From IMG/VR virus record IMGVR_UViG_3300045110_000103, positions 1-40,878 of that record: a stretch of DNA of 40,878 bases; one strand, written 5' to 3'. Within the stretch, counting starts at the first letter, position 1, and each line of letters begins with the position of its first letter. This DNA comes from a virus. A model generated the notes under the pieces. That model was not told where the DNA came from and made no database searches. It worked only from the letters and a program-made list of their open reading frames with translations. A program made the translations under genes and the position numbers. Shown here in pieces: positions 484 through 40,878 of this stretch.

Positions 484-526
484 CTGACTCAGGGCGGGCG
501 GGCCGGAGTGAGTCAGCACTCCGGCC
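484..526 (-). promoter_or_regulatory. H-type pseudoknot in leader of winged-helix gene
   Basis: In the minus-strand transcript a perfect 10-bp stem (GGCCGGAGTG / CACTCCGGCC) encloses the hexaloop CTGACT. The loop is complementary to AGTCAG 11 nt downstream, directly in front of the CAGGAG Shine-Dalgarno sequence. The second helix can extend to 9 bp (TGCTGACTC / GAGTCAGCA) by opening the first. The right-hand copy keeps both helices through compensatory changes. Placement next to the ribosome site suggests translational control, as in the phage T4 gene 32 operator; the ligand or protein is unknown. Confidence 0.75.
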
Positions 527-3985: not shown

Positions 3986-4089
3986 TTCGCCAGCGCAGCC
4001 TTCATCTCGGCCAGCTGGCGGGCGATGACCGGCACGCGGGCCGCCCAGATGATCGCCTCGATGCGGTCGCGGACTGTCGGCTTGTTCAC
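3982..4089 (-). CDS. 35-residue helical protein
   Basis: A GTG overlapping the HTH gene's TGA and a stop overlapping the next GTG define the ORF; GGGAGGTG lies upstream within the HTH gene. The sequence is one amphipathic-helix type stretch (VRDRIEAIIWAARVPVIARQ). No family recognised. Confidence 0.5.
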   Translation of the reverse strand: MNKPTVRDRIEAIIWAARVPVIARQLAEMKAALAK

Positions 4090-4274
4090 AGGAGCACCTC
4101 CCGATAGAAGGCGCGCAGTTGCGCCTCCTGCTCCGGCGACGGCTTGATGCCGCGCTCGATGAGGGACAGGTGGCCGCGCTTCGTCCATCCGAGGCGACGC
4201 TCCACTTCTCGCTGTGAGAGTCCACTCGCCAGGCGGAGCGCCTGCCAATGCGAGGATGGGGCGGTCTGTTCCAT
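4086..4274 (-). CDS. Cro/CI-type HTH regulator, leaderless
   Basis: 62 residues. Residues ~11-58 (WQALRLASGLSQREVERRLGWTKR, then LSLIERGIKPSPEQEAQL) form an HTH of the XRE/Cro family: the 'GLSQREVERRLG' pair plus 'LSLIERG' recognition helix is typical. The start is fixed by the promoter: the ATG falls 7 nt after the -10 box, where transcription should begin, and the upstream in-frame ATG lies inside the -10 box. It is the first gene of the left operon and overlaps three micro-genes in series. A repressor of its own or the opposing tail promoter is a fair inference. Confidence 0.8.
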   Translation of the reverse strand: MEQTAPSSHWQALRLASGLSQREVERRLGWTKRGHLSLIERGIKPSPEQEAQLRAFYREVLL

Positions 4275-12930: not shown

Positions 12931-13781
12931 CCGATCGAAACCACCTGCTGGCCCGCACTCCAGTTCTTCACGAAGTCCTGTACCTCGGGCGGCATCTGGC
13001 TGTAGCTGACGATGCCACCGGCCGGGGTGATGACGCTATCGGCCAGGAGCGCGGGCGGACGGGCCGTGTACCACGCCGCGAACACCTTGAGGGCGTGGAT
13101 GAAGGAGCCCGGCTCGAACGTCGGCTCCCAGCCCCAGTCGCCCGTGAACGCCGAGTCGTTGGGCATCGAGGTGAAGGCGTAGCCGCCGCCGTAGTTGCCG
13201 GGGTAGAACGGCGAGTCGAGCGCCTTATCGAACCAGAGCGGATCGGCGAGCCACCACGGCCCGCTATCGCTGGTGCGGAGCGCCCGGAACTGGATGCCGG
13301 TGTTGACGCCGCTGTTCATCACGTCGGGCAGGAGCCAGTACGCGCCCGAGGTCAGGAGCGTGCCCGCGTAGGTGATGGCGGTGGCCGTCCGCAGCCCCGG
13401 GATCGGCAGGCTGGCGCGGAGCATCGAGGTCATCGTGATGGTGGCACCTGGCGTGTTGGCGAGGAAGCGCCGCGTGGTCTGCTCCATCGAACTGATGGCG
13501 TCGAGGAGGTTCTGCCCGATGATCGCATCGGTGTACTGATCCGAGCCGCTCGTCGTCAGGCTCATCATGTCGCGGATCTCGGACGGCTTGACGACGGTGT
13601 ACGGCACCCACGTCACGCTGCCGTCCGTGATGTTCTGGTATCGCCCGGCCCACGTCGGCTCGGTGCCGCCCGAGTTGCCCGTGCTGGCGGCAGCCCGGAA
13701 CGTGTTGCCGTTGCTCACGGTCGGGTTGACGAGCGCATCGACCGAGTAGGCATGGTTGGCCTGCCACGTCGGGACTGTCAT
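12927..13781 (-). CDS. Head-tail connector protein with N-terminal Trp-rich module
   Basis: 284 residues. Residues ~5-58 (WQANHAYSVDALVNP ... TFRAAASTGNSGGTEPTW ... ITDGSVTWV) are a carbohydrate-module-like domain, homologous in layout to the one in the tail-terminator protein. The helical remainder (SEIRDMMSLTTSGSDQYTD ... ISSMEQTTRRFL) resembles gp6-type head-tail adaptors, and the large mixed C-terminal region is unassigned. ATGA overlap with the glycosyltransferase gene sets the start. Confidence 0.65.
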   Translation of the reverse strand: MTVPTWQANHAYSVDALVNPTVSNGNTFRAAASTGNSGGTEPTWAGRYQNITDGSVTWVPYTVVKPSEIRDMMSLTTSGSDQYTDAIIGQNLLDAISSMEQTTRRFLANTPGATITMTSMLRASLPIPGLRTATAITYAGTLLTSGAYWLLPDVMNSGVNTGIQFRALRTSDSGPWWLADPLWFDKALDSPFYPGNYGGGYAFTSMPNDSAFTGDWGWEPTFEPGSFIHALKVFAAWYTARPPALLADSVITPAGGIVSYSQMPPEVQDFVKNWSAGQQVVSIG

Positions 13782-15007
13782 GCCGCTATCGCCTCCCGCT
13801 GCGCGATGACGGCCGCGAAGCCCTCGGCGGCCTGCGCCCATGTGAACATGGAGCGAACGTGCTCCGGGCCCTTGCCCGCCAGCTTCCAGCGCATGGAGCG
13901 GTCACGCACCAGCGTATCGACGGCCACCGCGAACGCCCGCTCGTCCGCCACGCCCCAGAAGTGGGCATAGATGTTCTCCGTCAGTGGCTGCCGCACCGGC
14001 ACTACGATACCAGCCGGTCCTATCACCTCTGGCACGCTCGTGAAGTCGAGCCCGACGCACGCCACGCCGCAGGCAGCCGCCTCGGCGATCGTGAGGCCAA
14101 AGCCCTCCGACGAGTTGCTGGCGTAGATGTCGGCCGCGTTGTAGAGGACCGCCAAGGCGGTGCGCTCGAGCCCGACGTAGCGCCATGGCACGAGCATCCG
14201 TGCGCCGATGTGCGGCGGGAAGTGAGAGCGCATCTCATCGAAGTTGCCGCCATAGCCCTGGACCCGCGCGTTGATGAGCAGCATCGTCTTGGGGTTCCGG
14301 TCGAGCACCGCGGCCATCGAGCGCAGGAACGGCCCGTAGGCCTTGCGCGGCGCGTTGGCATCGCAGCGCAGGATGAGCGTCAGCTTCGGATCCAGGCCGA
14401 AGGCCCGCTTGGCATCGGCGCGGCTCGTGATGACCTTGTCCTCCCAGATGATCGGGTTGCGCGCCGTGGCCGGGTGGAAGACCTCGGCATCGACGCCGTG
14501 ATAGACCATCGGCGGTGCCACGCCCATCAGGCGCTCGATCTCAGCTGCCCCGCTGTTCGCCATGGCGATCGGTTGGATGCGCTGCCAGATGGCCGCCCAG
14601 AGCGGCGGCAGCCCGACGCCCTCGATGGCGACGTAGTGGTAGGCCGGCAGCCCGTCGGGCAGGATGTCCATGAGCTCCGCGCCGAGGATGGCGGCGGGGT
14701 CCGAGTGGATGATGACCGCCTCGGGTGCCCAGTCGTCGTCATAGGACGCCCCGGTGAAGAGGCCGCGCAGGCCCTCGCGCATCCGGTCGATGTCGCTGGC
14801 GATCTCCTCCGACGTCATCCACGTCTGCGGGCGGCTGACGCTGACGGTGCGCCCCTCGAGGAAGTCGGGCACGCCAGCCAGTAACTCCTCGCGGAACTGG
14901 AAGAGGCGCACGTCCTCGCCCCGTGCCAGGAGTGCCTTGATGGCGTCGGCGGTGACGGTGCCGAAGCCCGTGGGGCCGAGGTCGCCGATCCAGAGAATGC
15001 GCGTCAC
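13778..15007 (-). CDS. GT4-type glycosyltransferase
   Basis: 409 residues, GT-B fold. The N-terminal half begins RILWIGDLGPTGFGTVT, with the glycine-rich loop of the acceptor domain. The C-terminal half has SSEGFGLTIAEAAACGVACVG, the E-x7-E signature of Glycos_transf_1, which binds the sugar nucleotide. GTG start overlapping the upstream TGA as GTGA; the open frame further upstream overlaps the preceding gene and is not used. It is the third of three adjacent sugar-transfer type genes placed between capsid and connector genes, which suggests it acts on virion proteins. Confidence 0.85.
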   Translation of the reverse strand: MTRILWIGDLGPTGFGTVTADAIKALLARGEDVRLFQFREELLAGVPDFLEGRTVSVSRPQTWMTSEEIASDIDRMREGLRGLFTGASYDDDWAPEAVIIHSDPAAILGAELMDILPDGLPAYHYVAIEGVGLPPLWAAIWQRIQPIAMANSGAAEIERLMGVAPPMVYHGVDAEVFHPATARNPIIWEDKVITSRADAKRAFGLDPKLTLILRCDANAPRKAYGPFLRSMAAVLDRNPKTMLLINARVQGYGGNFDEMRSHFPPHIGARMLVPWRYVGLERTALAVLYNAADIYASNSSEGFGLTIAEAAACGVACVGLDFTSVPEVIGPAGIVVPVRQPLTENIYAHFWGVADERAFAVAVDTLVRDRSMRWKLAGKGPEHVRSMFTWAQAAEGFAAVIAQREAIAA

Positions 15008-16035
15008 GGCCGCAGCCCGAGCAGCGCCACGTCGTCGGGGTTCGGATCCCACTCGATGATGTTTTCCGTCGGCATGATGGCGTACTGGAGGCGAACCGTG
15101 TTCAGCTTCATCAGCCCGGCGAACTCCTGTCGGATGTTCGCGCACATCAGGGCGTGGTCCGCCTTGCTCATGCCCTCGATGATGGTCGCGGCCTCCTCGA
15201 GCGAATGGCGGTCGAGGTCGATGCACGTCTCCATGTCGCGCCACAAGGGCTCGGCCCACTGGCCGCGGTAGTAGCGGGCGTGGCCGATGAGCGGCCGGCC
15301 CACGGCAGCCCAGCCCGCGATGACGTGGCCGAAGCCGTCGCCGGTCACCTTGTCGTGGTAGGCCCAGCCCGCCGCGGCCATCTCCTCGGCGACGTTCGCC
15401 ACCGGACGCAGGAAGCCGTCCGGGCACTCGTGGCCGTAGGAGCGGAAGCCGTAGCCTGGCAGGCGGTCGCGCAGCCCGGCGAAGCCCTCCCACATCTCTG
15501 GCACGAGTGGCAGGAGATTGACGAATGAGACGATGCGATCCTGGCGGATCGGTGGTCGCCAGCGGAACGTGCGGTGGTGGTCGAATAGCTGAGGCCCTGA
15601 GATGATGGACGGCCGCAGGGTGTAGTCGACGGGCTGGTTCGCGTTGCCGATGTGGTAGAGGTAGCCGCCCTCAGCGGCGTACTCGCGGGCGAACCGGGCG
15701 AAGCCCGACTGATTCTCCTCGACGGTGGCGATGACGCTCTTCCAGATCATCGTCCGGGCCCGCGCCAGCGACACGCCATAGATGGGCCGCTCAGGGTGGT
15801 GCGGGTCGAAGGTCAGCCAGAGGCCGGGCTCCATCTCGCGCGCCTCGGCGATGGGCGAAACGAGGAACTGCCCGGCGAGCCGGTCGTCGCCGTACACCTG
15901 GCCGAAGCGCCAGTAGCCCTCGTCCCACCAGTCGTGGCCCATCGGCGTATAGAGGTCATCGCCGTCGCGGTTCTCCACCTGGAGTTGGAGCGCGTAGAAG
16001 AGATCAGCGTGGTGGCGGTCGGCGAGGACGTTCAT
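15004..16035 (-). CDS. Glycosyltransferase-like protein
   Basis: 343 residues. The opening MNVLADRHHADLFYALQLQV and HDWWDEGYWRFGQ recur in GT-B-like proteins of uncultured phages that stand beside true glycosyltransferases. The C-terminal half (GHVIAGWAAVGRPLIGHARYY ... EEAATIIEGM) resembles the nucleotide-sugar domain, with no clear E-x7-E. So it may be a divergent transferase or a non-catalytic partner. Coupled by ATGA to the small membrane protein gene and by GTGA to the next transferase. Confidence 0.6.
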   Translation of the reverse strand: MNVLADRHHADLFYALQLQVENRDGDDLYTPMGHDWWDEGYWRFGQVYGDDRLAGQFLVSPIAEAREMEPGLWLTFDPHHPERPIYGVSLARARTMIWKSVIATVEENQSGFARFAREYAAEGGYLYHIGNANQPVDYTLRPSIISGPQLFDHHRTFRWRPPIRQDRIVSFVNLLPLVPEMWEGFAGLRDRLPGYGFRSYGHECPDGFLRPVANVAEEMAAAGWAYHDKVTGDGFGHVIAGWAAVGRPLIGHARYYRGQWAEPLWRDMETCIDLDRHSLEEAATIIEGMSKADHALMCANIRQEFAGLMKLNTVRLQYAIMPTENIIEWDPNPDDVALLGLRP

Positions 16036-16193
16036 CGCTCGTACGCCCACGGCACGATGATGGCGCCACCGAGCCACGCCAGCGGGATGCCGATGAAGGT
16101 CCGCACCATGACATCGGGAAGAGCCCATTGAAGGACGACGACGAGGATGAGGCCATAGAGCGCCAACCCGACGAACGCTCGGAGGTCATTCAT
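16032..16193 (-). CDS. 53-residue two-helix membrane protein
   Basis: ATGA overlaps on both sides define 53 codons. Two hydrophobic segments (residues ~6-24, FVGLALYGLILVVVLQWAL, and ~33-49, FIGIPLAWLGGAIIVPW) are joined by a short turn. Sitting between two glycosyltransferase genes, it may anchor sugar transfer at the membrane, or be an unrelated small membrane protein. Confidence 0.6.
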   Translation of the reverse strand: MNDLRAFVGLALYGLILVVVLQWALPDVMVRTFIGIPLAWLGGAIIVPWAYER

Positions 16194-17224
16194 CCGAGGA
16201 ACGCCCTCCACTGCGCGCCGATCGTCTCCTTGCCGAAGAGCTCGATGGCCCGCGCCCGTGTCTCGGCGCTGATGGCCTCAGCGACGCCGTTGTCCTCCAT
16301 GAGCATCGGGAAGAACGAGCCGTAGGCCTCGTTGCCCGGATGGCGCGTCACCAGCTGGTCCGCCTCGAAGAGTTCGTGACCATACGGGAAGACGCGCATG
16401 AAGCAGCCGTCGATGGAGAACGTCGGAATGCCCGTCATCATCGCCTCGACGAGCCCCAGCGTGTACGGCGCCGGCTGGGTGCCGGTGTAGAAGTAGGCAC
16501 GAGCGCGCCGGAGCCAGCGGCGCATATCGTCGTAGGACAGCGCGCCGGGTCCGCCGATCTCCTCGCTGCCTGGCCCCAGTGCCAGGAACGGGACCGATGG
16601 CACGGCACGCTTGGCGCTGTCCCACGCCAGCCAGTTGGTGTACGGATCGCGCTGGTAGAGGTGCTGGGTGATGTTGATGACGACGCGCTCGGTGCCCGTC
16701 CAGCCCGTCCACACGTCCGGGTCAGCGTAGAAGCGGATGAGTGCGTCGTGGCCGGTGTAGCCGGGGATGTTCGCCTCCCGCGGTGAGTAGGCCACGCGCT
16801 GGAGTCCCTCGGCACGGTAGGGCCGCATCACGTTCTCGTTGTGCTCGACGGTCTGGCCGACCGATCGCCAGACGACGCGCTTGTGCTTGATGCGGTCCCA
16901 CTGGTGCGGGATGAACGTGTGCTCGGCCTCATGGACGATGAAGACGTCCATCCAGTCGATGACCTCATCGGGCAGGTTCACCTTGGCCCAGTCGAAGAGC
17001 ACGCCAGGCTCGCCCCACGCATCGTTCATCTTCTCGCGCTGGCGCTGGCACGCCGCGCGGAGCTCAGGATGATCGGGCGCCTGCGGCAGCGCGGGTCGGA
17101 GGCCCTCGTGGTGGTGCGGATCCTCATAGGCGCCGATGCTGAACACGTCGTAGCCGAGGCCCGAGAGCAGCGAAACTTGGTCGAACTCTTCTATTTCATG
17201 GAGGTGAGCCAAAACGATATTCAC
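16190..17224 (-). CDS. GT-B glycosyltransferase-like protein
   Basis: 344 residues from a GTG in GTGA overlap. The N-terminus NIVLAHLHEIEEFDQVSLL and the C-terminal part (RARAYFYTGTQPAPYTLGLVEAMMTGIPTFSIDG) match GT4-like enzymes: the EAMMTGIP segment is the usual E-x7-E region in shortened form. Part of the same cassette as the two other transferase genes, the FkbM-type methyltransferase and two small genes. Confidence 0.75.
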   Translation of the reverse strand: MNIVLAHLHEIEEFDQVSLLSGLGYDVFSIGAYEDPHHHEGLRPALPQAPDHPELRAACQRQREKMNDAWGEPGVLFDWAKVNLPDEVIDWMDVFIVHEAEHTFIPHQWDRIKHKRVVWRSVGQTVEHNENVMRPYRAEGLQRVAYSPREANIPGYTGHDALIRFYADPDVWTGWTGTERVVINITQHLYQRDPYTNWLAWDSAKRAVPSVPFLALGPGSEEIGGPGALSYDDMRRWLRRARAYFYTGTQPAPYTLGLVEAMMTGIPTFSIDGCFMRVFPYGHELFEADQLVTRHPGNEAYGSFFPMLMEDNGVAEAISAETRARAIELFGKETIGAQWRAFLG

Positions 17225-17445
17225 GTCGCCGCTCGCTCGGCTTGGAGCCGTGAGAATGTCGTGCCGATAGGCCAGTCCACACCAGCCTTTTCGACGATGA
17301 GCTCGCCGGACTCGGCTAGGTCGATGTACCGTAGTCCGCCGCCTTCTTCGACCACTACCGCGGCGGCGCTATAGCCGTTCTGCGCGGCCACGAAGCCGAC
17401 GATGAGGACGTCCCGGTCGTGGTACTTCGCCTCGATGGCGGTCAC
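17221..17445 (-). CDS. Hypothetical small protein in glycosylation cassette
   Basis: 74 residues, beta-rich (DVLIVGFVAAQNGYSAAAVV ... RYIDLAESGELIVE), soluble. No family recognised. Coupled by ATGA to the methyltransferase gene and by GTGA to the transferase gene, so it belongs to that operon segment. Confidence 0.6.
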   Translation of the reverse strand: MTAIEAKYHDRDVLIVGFVAAQNGYSAAAVVVEEGGGLRYIDLAESGELIVEKAGVDWPIGTTFSRLQAERAAT

Positions 17446-18173
17446 TTCCGCACCGCCCGGAAGAGCCAGCCGTCCACCGTCACGTCATGCGTCTTGGACA
17501 GGCGCGCCACCATGTCCTCGACGACATGGTCGCCGACCGGATGCGCCTCGCCGACGATGAGCGGCAGCCGCCGCAGGCTGGCGAGCGTCGCCGTCTCGAA
17601 GAACGGCCACTCGGCGCCCTCGCAGTCGATCTTGACGAACTCGGGTTCGGTCATACCGAAGCGGTCGAGGAGCGCCTGGAGGCCGAGCGTCTCGACCTCC
17701 ATCGCCTCGTGCTGGATGGTCCCGGCGTCGGGGTACGTGAGCGAGGAGTTGCCGACGAAGGCGTGGTGTTCGAGGTTCGAGTCGCCGACGTAGCGGAAGC
17801 GGATCTCGCTCGTGGTGATGCCCTTGGGCCCGATCGCGCCGCGGTAGACCGTCACCCGGTCGGCCACGCCGTTGGCTGCCGCGTTCTGCTCGCAGAGGTC
17901 GGCGTTCTCCGGCACCGGCTCGACGATGACCACGCGCGCCTCGGGATTATCGACGGCGATCGCCATGCCCACCGTGCCGAGGTAGCCGCCGATGTCGAGC
18001 ACGTCGCCGGTCACGTAGAGGTCGGCGAGGTGGTACTCGTCGTTGGTGCCGAGCGTGCTGCTGGCGGTGTTGAAGTCGTTGGTGTCGTCGCGCAGCGTCA
18101 CGAGAACGTGCTTGCCGCGTGGTGTCTGGAACGTCTCGTGCGCGATGGGGTAGCTGATGGCCTCGAGCGTCAC
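17442..18173 (-). CDS. FkbM-family SAM-dependent methyltransferase
   Basis: 243 residues. DVLDIGGYLGTVGMAIAVD is motif I (SAM binding), VVIVEPVPENADLCEQNAAAN the acidic ribose-binding loop, and PEFVKIDCEGAEWPFFE the FkbM signature (KID.EG.E). FkbM enzymes O-methylate sugars and small molecules. Next to glycosyltransferases it most likely methylates the attached glycan. The GTG was chosen because two Shine-Dalgarno copies precede it; an upstream ATG at 18248 lies within a hairpin. Confidence 0.85.
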   Translation of the reverse strand: MTLEAISYPIAHETFQTPRGKHVLVTLRDDTNDFNTASSTLGTNDEYHLADLYVTGDVLDIGGYLGTVGMAIAVDNPEARVVIVEPVPENADLCEQNAAANGVADRVTVYRGAIGPKGITTSEIRFRYVGDSNLEHHAFVGNSSLTYPDAGTIQHEAMEVETLGLQALLDRFGMTEPEFVKIDCEGAEWPFFETATLASLRRLPLIVGEAHPVGDHVVEDMVARLSKTHDVTVDGWLFRAVRK

Positions 18174-18197
18174 TGTCTCATCTCCTGTCTCATCTCC
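18174..18197 (-). repeat. Tandem 12-bp duplication carrying two ribosome sites
   Basis: Two perfect copies of GGAGATGAGACA stand directly before the methyltransferase GTG. Each holds GGAG, at 8 and 20 nt from the start codon. The near copy has good spacing; the far one looks like a recent slippage duplication. Confidence 0.75.
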
Positions 18198-18207
18198 GGC
18201 GGGTGGT

Positions 18208-18244
18208 GCTCCCCGGCCGGGGAGATGAGGGCCGGCCGGGGAGC
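18208..18244 (-). terminator. 13-bp GC hairpin before methyltransferase gene
   Basis: Perfect arms GCTCCCCGGCCGG / CCGGCCGGGGAGC with an 11-nt loop; the arm nearest the gene is also part of a 16-bp palindrome (18209-18224). There is no U tract. It lies 7 nt past the stop of the acidic capsid-associated gene and could attenuate transcription from the abundant capsid message into the glycosylation genes. Confidence 0.5.
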
Positions 18245-39120: not shown

Positions 39121-40025
39121 CGCGCCCGACCGAGAACTTGCACCGATACCTCAGCGATGCCCATCGTCCACCGGACACCCGAGACAGCCTCAAACGTCGG
39201 CACGTCGACGTCGATGACCCGGCCCTTGCGCTGTCCGGCGAGGGAGGGGCCGGCGTCGTTGCTCGTCACCGTCCGGCAGCCGCCGGCGCCGCAGACGCGA
39301 AGCCGCCAGCCCGGGCCGTCGGGCCAGGCGATCCAGCCGTCCCAGCCCGGGCCGTACGTCGTCATGATCCCGGTGCGCACCAGCACCGGCTTGCGCGGCT
39401 CGAGCGTCGGACACGGCCCGGAGCAGAGCGGTGGGATCAGTCCACCGAGGCCCACCGTTCGCGGCGGACAATGTGCCCGATCGTCTGGAACGCCACATCG
39501 AACTGACGGGCTAGGGCTCGCTGGGACTCCCCCTCCGCAGCCAGCCGCCGAATCTCCCGAACCTCCGCACCCGTCAGGCGAGCATAGTGATTGGCTTCCC
39601 CCGACCTCCCCGCCAGGGAGGCCCGGCCCTTGGCTTTGCGATCCGCGATATTGTCGAGGTTCGTTCCCAGCCAAAGGTGAGTCGGCTCGATGCACGGTGG
39701 ATTGTCGCAATGATGGAGAACGTGCATCCCGGGTGGGATTGGCCCATTGGTCAACTCCCAAGCCACTCGATGAGCGGACCGCGAAGGCGTACGCCAGGTC
39801 AACCGCCCGTACCCCTTGACGAACCGACGGCCCTGCCACTCCAGGCACTCCCCCACCCGGATAGCCATCTGCCAGAACTCCGCTTCCGTCCACCGTCGGC
39901 CCGGTTTGCGTCGGATCATTGCTCCCTCCGATACACAGTTGCCCGACTCCCATGCCCGGCATTGCGACCACCGCGGAGCCGAGGGCCAGGAGGAGAGCGA
40001 CGATCGCGGCGGCGATGGCGGTCAT
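39117..40025 (-). CDS. Secreted RlpA-like (double-psi beta-barrel) protein, split by HNH gene
   Basis: 302 codons, open throughout. The first ~22 are a signal peptide (TAIAAAIVALLLALGSAVVA); the last ~110 are a double-psi barrel of the RlpA type (WIAWPDGPGWRLRVCGAGGC, TSNDAGPS, RVIDVDVPTFEAVSGVRW). The middle ~160 codons only mirror the HNH gene in another frame and have no protein-like character. 'LC' occurs on both sides of the insert (GQLCIGG and PPLCSGP), so the parent protein probably ran straight across. RlpA-like domains act on peptidoglycan or bind it. Whether a fusion, a short form or nothing is made is open. Confidence 0.6.
   Translation of the reverse strand: MTAIAAAIVALLLALGSAVVAMPGMGVGQLCIGGSNDPTQTGPTVDGSGVLADGYPGGGVPGVAGPSVRQGVRAVDLAYAFAVRSSSGLGVDQWANPTRDARSPSLRQSTVHRADSPLAGNEPRQYRGSQSQGPGLPGGEVGGSQSLCSPDGCGGSGDSAAGCGGGVPASPSPSVRCGVPDDRAHCPPRTVGLGGLIPPLCSGPCPTLEPRKPVLVRTGIMTTYGPGWDGWIAWPDGPGWRLRVCGAGGCRTVTSNDAGPSLAGQRKGRVIDVDVPTFEAVSGVRWTMGIAEVSVQVLGRAR
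39437..39919 (-). CDS. HNH homing-type endonuclease
   Basis: 160 residues. HVLHHCDNPPCIEPTHLWLGTN (residues ~66-87) with a following N and DRKAKGR is the HNH_3 core: metal-binding His pair, Cys pair and 'THLWLGT'. The C-terminal ~45 residues (GAEVREIRRLAAEGESQRAL ... DVAFQTIGHI) form an HTH that would give target specificity. GGAGGGAG lies before the ATG. Nested in the RlpA-like gene in a different frame; a free-standing insertion, without visible intron core. Confidence 0.88.
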   Translation of the reverse strand: MIRRKPGRRWTEAEFWQMAIRVGECLEWQGRRFVKGYGRLTWRTPSRSAHRVAWELTNGPIPPGMHVLHHCDNPPCIEPTHLWLGTNLDNIADRKAKGRASLAGRSGEANHYARLTGAEVREIRRLAAEGESQRALARQFDVAFQTIGHIVRRERWASVD

Positions 40026-40456
40026 GCGTCCACCGGGAGGTCGAGTTTCCGGTAGGCGTCGATGATGGTCGGGCTCCCGTTCTTCGGTGCGCGCTCTTGC
40101 GCGCGCGTTGGCTCGGTTTGGTTAGGCTCGGCTCGGTTAGGCATCGTTTCCGCAGTGCCGTGCCTAATGCGGGCCGCATGGCTAGCGGCACTGCTCCGAG
40201 CAGTGCGCTCCGCATCCATGCCCTTGATGCGGTAGTACGGCCCTCGGGCGATCGTGAGGACGAGCCCGGCATCTACCAAGACACGGAGTGGGCGAGGACG
40301 CGCGGAGCGGGGCACTTCCGGCAGTGCGGGCCACATGGCCTCGGCTACCGTAAGGAGGCGGATATACGTCGCGAGGGCCGCATCGTCATGCCAGACGTCG
40401 GCATAGTCCCGCTGGAGGTCCACGTAATAGATGCGTGAATACGGCCGGTCTGCCAT
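40022..40456 (-). CDS. Winged-helix replication/regulatory-type protein, allele 2
   Basis: 144 residues. The same domain plan as allele 1: a winged-helix part (RDYADVWHDDAALATYIRLL ... LVDAGLVLTIARGPYYRIKG), a linker made of short repeats (PNRAEPNQTEPTRA), and the identical tail RAQERAPKNGSPTIIDAY. AGGAG lies 6 nt before the ATG. The domain is as different from allele 1 as distant family members would be, whereas flanking DNA is nearly the same; a swapped cassette is the best explanation. Confidence 0.65.
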   Translation of the reverse strand: MADRPYSRIYYVDLQRDYADVWHDDAALATYIRLLTVAEAMWPALPEVPRSARPRPLRVLVDAGLVLTIARGPYYRIKGMDAERTARSSAASHAARIRHGTAETMPNRAEPNQTEPTRAQERAPKNGSPTIIDAYRKLDLPVDA

Positions 40457-40468
40457 GCGCGACTCCTG

Positions 40469-40511
40469 CTTGCTCAGGGCGGGCGGCCCGGAGTGAGCAA
40501 GCACTCCGGGC
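40469..40511 (-). promoter_or_regulatory. H-type pseudoknot in leader, allele 2
   Basis: Stem GCCCGGAGTG / CACTCCGGGC with loop CTTGCT, which pairs with AGCAAG 11 nt downstream before CAGGAG. Against allele 1 there are two base-pair swaps in the loop helix and one in the stem, each compensated, while the 11-nt connector is unchanged. Confidence 0.75.
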
Positions 40512-40523
40512 GCTCTCCCGCGA

Positions 40524-40546
40524 TCGACGGTTCCGGGTTCCGTCGA
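40524..40546 (-). promoter_or_regulatory. Upstream leader hairpin, allele 2
   Basis: Stem TCGACGG / CCGTCGA, 7 bp, with a 9-nt loop; the counterpart of 541-559. Confidence 0.45.
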
Positions 40547-40559
40547 CATCATCGTACCA

Positions 40560-40877
40560 CTACGACCGAAGCTCGCGCGTCTCGAAGAAGCCGTCAAGGT
40601 CGGAGTATTCGGCGATGGCTCGGCGGACGAGACGGCTGGCGTAGTGGTCATTGATCTTGAAGCCGTCCTCTGGTCCGACCTGGATGTTCCGGTCGTAGCG
40701 GATCGTCTCGATGATGGCCTTGTGGCTGTAGTGGCGCCAGCCGCGCTTTCGCAGCGCAAGAGCCCGGAGGACCAGTTCGGAGTACACGAGGTAACCGTCG
40801 CGGGTGAGCATCCACTCATCGAACCGTTGCTGGATGGACGCCCGACGGGCTGGAGTCATCCACAAGCTGTCCATCAT
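40560..40877 (-). CDS. Conserved phage protein of unknown function, copy 2
   Basis: 105 residues, the near-identical counterpart of the gene at 575-892 (two substitutions). Its start codon is one base from the window end, so its own upstream overlap cannot be seen; joining the ends would place it after the 64-residue gene. Confidence 0.75.
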   Translation of the reverse strand: MMDSLWMTPARRASIQQRFDEWMLTRDGYLVYSELVLRALALRKRGWRHYSHKAIIETIRYDRNIQVGPEDGFKINDHYASRLVRRAIAEYSDLDGFFETRELRS

Positions 40878-40878
40878 G

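Follow-up and report, generated by a model that had tools for sequence, protein, structure and literature searches.

A leader element in front of a replication-initiation-like gene probably acts in cis as an RNA lock on translation, with a pairing code that drifts. The window analyzed here is the whole IMG/VR virus contig IMGVR_UViG_3300045110_000103, with a length of 40,878 nt, and all features described in it lie on the minus strand. Structured leaders are mostly recognized by conserved sequence, whereas this one conserves only its pairing plan and its placement at the Shine-Dalgarno sequence (SD), which is why covariance searches built from sequence miss it. As judged from sequence, a preliminary proposal is supported, namely that a covarying pseudoknot-type element is positioned for translational control of the winged-helix gene.

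Architecture of the leader element

From 5' to 3', copy 1 begins with the first strand of the hairpin S1, GGCCGGAGTG (517-526), which was identified from the letters, by the structure detector and in the alignment. It is followed by the loop CTGACT (511-516), which is at the same time the 5' strand of the second helix S2 (the anti-target, strand B), by the S1 3' strand CACTCCGGCC (501-510), by an 11-nt connector, CGCCCGCCCTG (490-500), and by the S2 3' strand AGTCAG (the target, strand C; 484-489), which ends directly 5' of the SD. After the target, the order is CAGGAG, then TCACGC, then ATG (471), the SD AGGAG (478-482) being read from the sequence 6 nt 5' of the start codon. Copy 2 follows the same order, with S1 strands GCCCGGAGTG (40502-40511) and CACTCCGGGC (40486-40495) around the loop CTTGCT (40496-40501), the unchanged 11-nt connector, AGCAAG (40469-40474), CAGGAG, TCGCGC and ATG. 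The letters and positions that had been given for both copies hold when read on this strand.

S1 is thus a hairpin of 10 bp with a 6-nt loop, complementary to the 6 nt that adjoin the SD. The loop helix sits within a perfect 10-nt inverted repeat, TGCTGACTCA/TGAGTCAGCA in one copy and TGCTTGCTCA/TGAGCAAGCA in the other, which overlaps S1 by 2+2 nt. L1 is 0 nt, so that one closing S1 pair has to open. When the window leaders were folded as nested structures, no strong alternative stem masking the SD was found. Further upstream lie hairpin A, GACGG/CCGTC (541-559), probably close to the putative 5' end of the RNA, and a candidate -10 box, TATGGT (566-571), which is a consensus match only (p=0.20).

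Two probable alleles at the ends of one record

The two copies differ at 6 of 43 positions, all of them in pairs, giving exactly three double-sided compensations (G-C to C-G, G-C to T-A and A-T to G-C), and 16 of 16 pairs are kept. Six randomly placed substitutions reproduced this pattern 15 times in 2,000,000 simulations (p ~1e-5). The reported compensation of three altered pairs around a constant connector is confirmed. The allele pair can be regarded as a natural compensatory-mutation experiment. Helix energy alone was modest, with 40 of 2000 shuffles equally good for copy 1 and 29 of 2000 for copy 2, the latter value referring to the detector's top structure, which is another pairing and not the pseudoknot described. 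For this reason, the case rests on covariation and on the relatives described below. It should be noted that the first, energy-only detector was too permissive on S1 span and mispaired the window copies; the stricter version used here is imperfect for copy 2.

The first 905 nt of the record (1-905) align with its last 904 nt (39975-40878), the terminal regions being almost the same toward either edge and divergent in their central part. The assembly probably continued around a genome of ~39,974 bp, circular or circularly permuted, and into a second strain. Copy 2, the sequence of which was reported correctly, is therefore probably a second allele of one locus and not a duplicated leader. The diverged patch covers the winged-helix protein over its first two thirds, plus the pseudoknot, between near-identical flanks; with allelic divergence confined to these two parts, it has the appearance of a local diversification hotspot.

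The gene behind the element is encoded at 49-471 (allele 1, P0001) and 40022-40456 (allele 2, P0002). Both proteins share 52% identity overall, and their C-terminal 28 residues are identical. In an AlphaFold model, helices and a beta hairpin make up a core predicted with confidence (pLDDT ~90 or more, residues 11-80), indicating a topology of winged-helix type; a fold search with this model returned no significant PDB match. PHROG 3926 (replication initiation protein) was matched by 11 of 18 members of the family. A helicase, a DNA methylase and an HNH endonuclease are encoded nearby on the same strand, and a small XRE-type HTH protein (PF01381) is encoded at 4086-4274. An N-terminal extension of the protein through the leader was considered and rejected, since stop codons ahead of the start close the in-frame opening of the window in both L093 and L027.

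Related leaders in other phages

Relatives, which are uncultivated, were collected through the neighboring helicase, which gave 80 viral loci, and through the winged-helix N-terminus, which gave more loci and one Chloroflexota MAG. Winged-helix relatives in L093, L094 (= L004), L095, L096 (= L027) and L085 carry, before the start, a hairpin loop complementary to the SD region, in letters unrelated to those of the window. None of 2000 dinucleotide shuffles was as good as the leaders of L091, L093, L094, L095, L096 and L047, and the leader of L085 was better than 1999 of 2000. Under the same shuffle test, winged-helix starts that abut or lie inside an upstream coding sequence displayed no unusual structure. 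The element of L091 stands before an 82-aa gene that lies directly 5' of the winged-helix gene, that of L013 and L015 before another helicase-linked gene (the two genes 70% identical), and that of L047 before a non-homologous initiator family, PHROG 1408 (replication initiation). With few exceptions among the listed members, the target contains or adjoins the SD.

The preliminary description had pointed to other leaders as the place to look for further covariation, and covarying relatives were indeed found there. The 56-nt elements of L091 and L140 can be aligned gap-free, with identical spacing, in front of non-homologous genes; of the nine S2 pairs, five are compensated on both sides, and all 16 core pairs are retained, a result matched by 1 in 1,000,000 simulations. 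Between L013 and L015 three more S2 compensations are present, one edge pair being lost in L015; energy alone was weak for both (11 and 74 of 400 shuffles, respectively). Together with the window alleles, the alignable covarying pairs total three, pair counts for L085/L096 being left out on account of an ambiguous register alignment.

Two anatomical classes can be distinguished. In class I (the window, L085, L096, L091, L140, L013 and L015), S1 has 7-12 bp, L1 is short, the connector measures 11-30 nt and a -10-like box lies 37-55 nt 5' of S1. Four of these (L085, L091, L096 and L140) possess an upstream hairpin A between the -10-like box and S1, the loop of which repeats the SD-side target, and their sequences suggest that A:B pairing could compete with B:C pairing. 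In class II (L093, L094, L095 and L047), S1 has 14-16 bp and starts a few nt from the -10 box, L1 is long and the connector measures 0-6 nt. Given such stem and connector lengths, a coaxial H-type fold may be strained, and S1 and S2 may there be alternatives. Most initiator-type leaders have a -10-like box just 5', these being consensus matches only (shuffle p 0.00 to 0.39).

The element of L047 (L047:3225-3302) is contained in the 3'-terminal part of a methylase gene, the stop of which overlaps the GTG of the next gene (TAGGTG), and translational coupling may open it. For the L047 initiator gene, three distant phage relatives were considered, and by annotation each begins immediately behind or within the gene before it. 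The element is absent from many winged-helix relatives, implying that it is dispensable. Among Chloroflexota genomes the winged-helix gene was found in G001 only, in two copies (L126 and L127), both without the element; the two genes are 39% identical and follow near-identical upstream sequence, so that, as in the window, a gene varies while its surroundings stay constant. L087, with a perfect 10-bp hairpin and an S2 of just 5 bp (19/2000), was excluded from the members, while L008, L040, L054, L055 and similar matches were judged to be chance or unclear.

Tandem targets and gene-wide scans

A second element of the window precedes an FkbM methyltransferase gene. Its S1 strands GCTCCCCGGCCGG (18232-18244) and CCGGCCGGGGAGC (18208-18220) enclose the loop CTCATCTCC (18221-18229), and two tandem targets, GGAGATGAG (18177-18197), each with a GGAG SD, stand before GTG 18173. 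The FkbM homologue of L142 has the same plan in other letters, with loop GTGCGAGC and two targets GCTCGCAC around AGGAGG. In L134 (L134:15696-15767), the loop TAGCCCGT faces three copies of ACGGGCTA, the last of which overlaps the start codon ATG. The FkbM and L134 elements are intergenic and have no visible promoter. The FkbM gene belongs to a stretch (13778-18173) within the structural gene region that also encodes a glycosyltransferase, which suggests surface modification of the virion or host.

A scan for hairpins of at least 8 bp with a loop word of at least 8 nt and its complement before an SD and start returned 49 sites, against 30 and 31 in controls with the target reversed or complemented, and from this excess perhaps about one third of the sites are real. 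Multi-target sites numbered 3 vs 0 and 1 in the controls. Members in good context were the FkbM leader of the window (18173), L142, L134, L140 and L013 with its homologue L015. A strict energy-rule count of pseudoknots over all called genes displayed no enrichment (43 found vs 37.6 expected), and just its highest-ranking hits were conspicuous; no genome-wide use is therefore claimed, and the claim is carried by the individual elements and their covariation.

Proposed mechanism and alternative explanations

The following mechanism would account for these features. The leader transcript would fold into the stable hairpin S1, leaving loop B free to pair with strand C at or in the SD of the next gene, either as an H-type pseudoknot or as a hairpin-to-strand kissing complex, and we infer that this pairing would exclude the 30S subunit from the start site. 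The replication initiator and the downstream operon would thereby be kept low or timed. Since the SD lies in or against the helix, pairing most likely represses translation rather than activating it as in IncI repZ. Selection would act on the pairing and the SD placement and not on the letters, allowing the B:C code to drift, even between alleles in one sample. The lock might be opened or set by A:B pairing during transcription, or by a trans partner carrying the C (or B) sequence, both being suggested by the repetition of C in hairpin A (L085, L091, L096 and L140) and by the tandem C strands of the FkbM and L134 leaders. If translation follows pairing, this would be a very simple way of metering a replication initiator. 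A broader reading, for which the expectation is low, is that a modular, sequence-private lock is reused by a group of uncultivated phages for replication initiators and late genes. Its loop-target code would then diversify in the manner of an incompatibility or immunity type, and co-infecting relatives, as in this sample, could neither unlock nor lock one another's initiator.

The alternative that survives best, though it is unlikely, is control of the initiator by a pseudoknot together with a small RNA, of the IncI-alpha repZ or P1/P7 c4 kind, in which case the window alleles would represent two incompatibility or heteroimmunity types. The target genes include replication initiators (PHROG 3926 and PHROG 1408), and loop letters switch with pairing kept, even within one sample. 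IncK RNAI groups that lie five nt apart are compatible, and one change is enough to switch compatibility (PMC10724649), while c4 loops partly occlude the ribosome binding site (RBS) and their variable loops confer specificity; a small-RNA component like c4 (PMC5320573) or RNAI (PMC10724649) would account for rapid code change. Against this, no antisense promoter rose above background in 15 elements (p of at least 0.24, for sigma-70-like promoters), c4 was not matched in Rfam, and no integrase was present in the subset of window proteins scanned, so that lysogeny is unsupported. If the code also acts in trans, the system would be one of RNA-based incompatibility in phages, with alleles six nucleotides apart.

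Two readings involving a protein are far less probable. The predicted winged-helix-like topology and the perfect 10-nt inverted repeat would suit a DNA operator at which the protein represses its own promoter, the compensations reflecting dimer symmetry; this is very improbable, given that arm spacing varies widely among members, that the 3' arm is fixed to the SD, that two inverted repeats interleave in pseudoknot fashion, and that homologous elements with other letters stand before non-homologous genes (L091/L140), the design also occurring before FkbM genes. Just as improbable is an autogenous translational operator bound by the gene product, for which the start-site position and the precedent of T4 gene 32 (PMC535899) speak; members have no conserved nucleotides that a protein could read, the proteins behind the element are unrelated (the FkbM methyltransferase and the products in L140 and L134), and the homologous pair L091/L140 fronts different genes. 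Quasi-palindrome template switching could produce matched changes without selection, but under it the constant position of the 3' strand at the SD of unrelated leaders would go unexplained.

Members have in common that they pair, that they sit on or against the SD and that their letters are not conserved; for this reason the cis translation lock appears to fit better than either a protein-read operator or a ligand-binding riboswitch.

Comparison with known systems

Leader pseudoknots that control translation are already known, and this element would be a further one of that kind. The exact DNA pattern of the window element was absent from the viral contigs searched, a first-pass search of which also gave no relatives of P0001/P0002 or P0003, and among named phages or plasmids no DNA or encoded relatives were close enough, in collections that may lack close neighbors of the window. 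In the mainly open-access literature covered, the systems described were repZ, c4 and gene 32, and no account of this element was present.

The preQ1-II and SAM-II riboswitches are likewise H-type pseudoknots with the 3' strand at the SD. They have conserved ligand-binding nucleotides, whereas none are conserved among the present members, in which loop and stem letters are unrelated and no sequence resembling a ligand pocket recurs. Rfam returned no family match at the gathering or a lax threshold, and the earlier term "riboswitch-like", in its small-molecule sense, was accordingly dropped. In T4 and RB69 gene 32, a leader pseudoknot is likewise found on the mRNA of a phage replication protein, but the RBS there is unstructured, and the pseudoknot, located 5' of it, serves to nucleate protein binding (PMC535899), whereas the pairing here touches the SD.

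In P1/P7 c4 RNA (RF01695), upstream hairpin loops are likewise complementary to an RBS in the same transcript, and variable loops set specificity (PMC5320573). The c4 hairpin RNA is cut from its own transcript and represses the SD of its own mRNA and that of an incoming phage. It comprises three conserved stem-loops, is processed by RNase P and has been described from Proteobacteria and their phages, whereas a single hairpin core is present here, and the three-stem covariance model gave no match by cmscan at gathering and lax thresholds.

In IncI-alpha, IncL/M and IncB, a hairpin loop likewise pairs near the SD of the replication initiator repZ (repA), and the loop sets specificity. Control of repZ includes a leader peptide and uses an antisense RNA, encoded opposite the hairpin, that blocks translation, and the pseudoknot there releases the RBS from an inhibitory stem; here, no leader peptide is conserved and no sigma-70-like antisense promoter was found above background. 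The repZ pseudoknot lies 5' of the RBS and activates translation (PMC8383071), whereas the paired strand here contains or abuts the SD. The repZ-type feature of a leader pseudoknot 5' of a replication initiator gene is present here, as indicated by sequence and covariation. By analogy, the element resembles the control of IncI-alpha repZ and that of P1 c4, a likeness that does not by itself make it a member of either.
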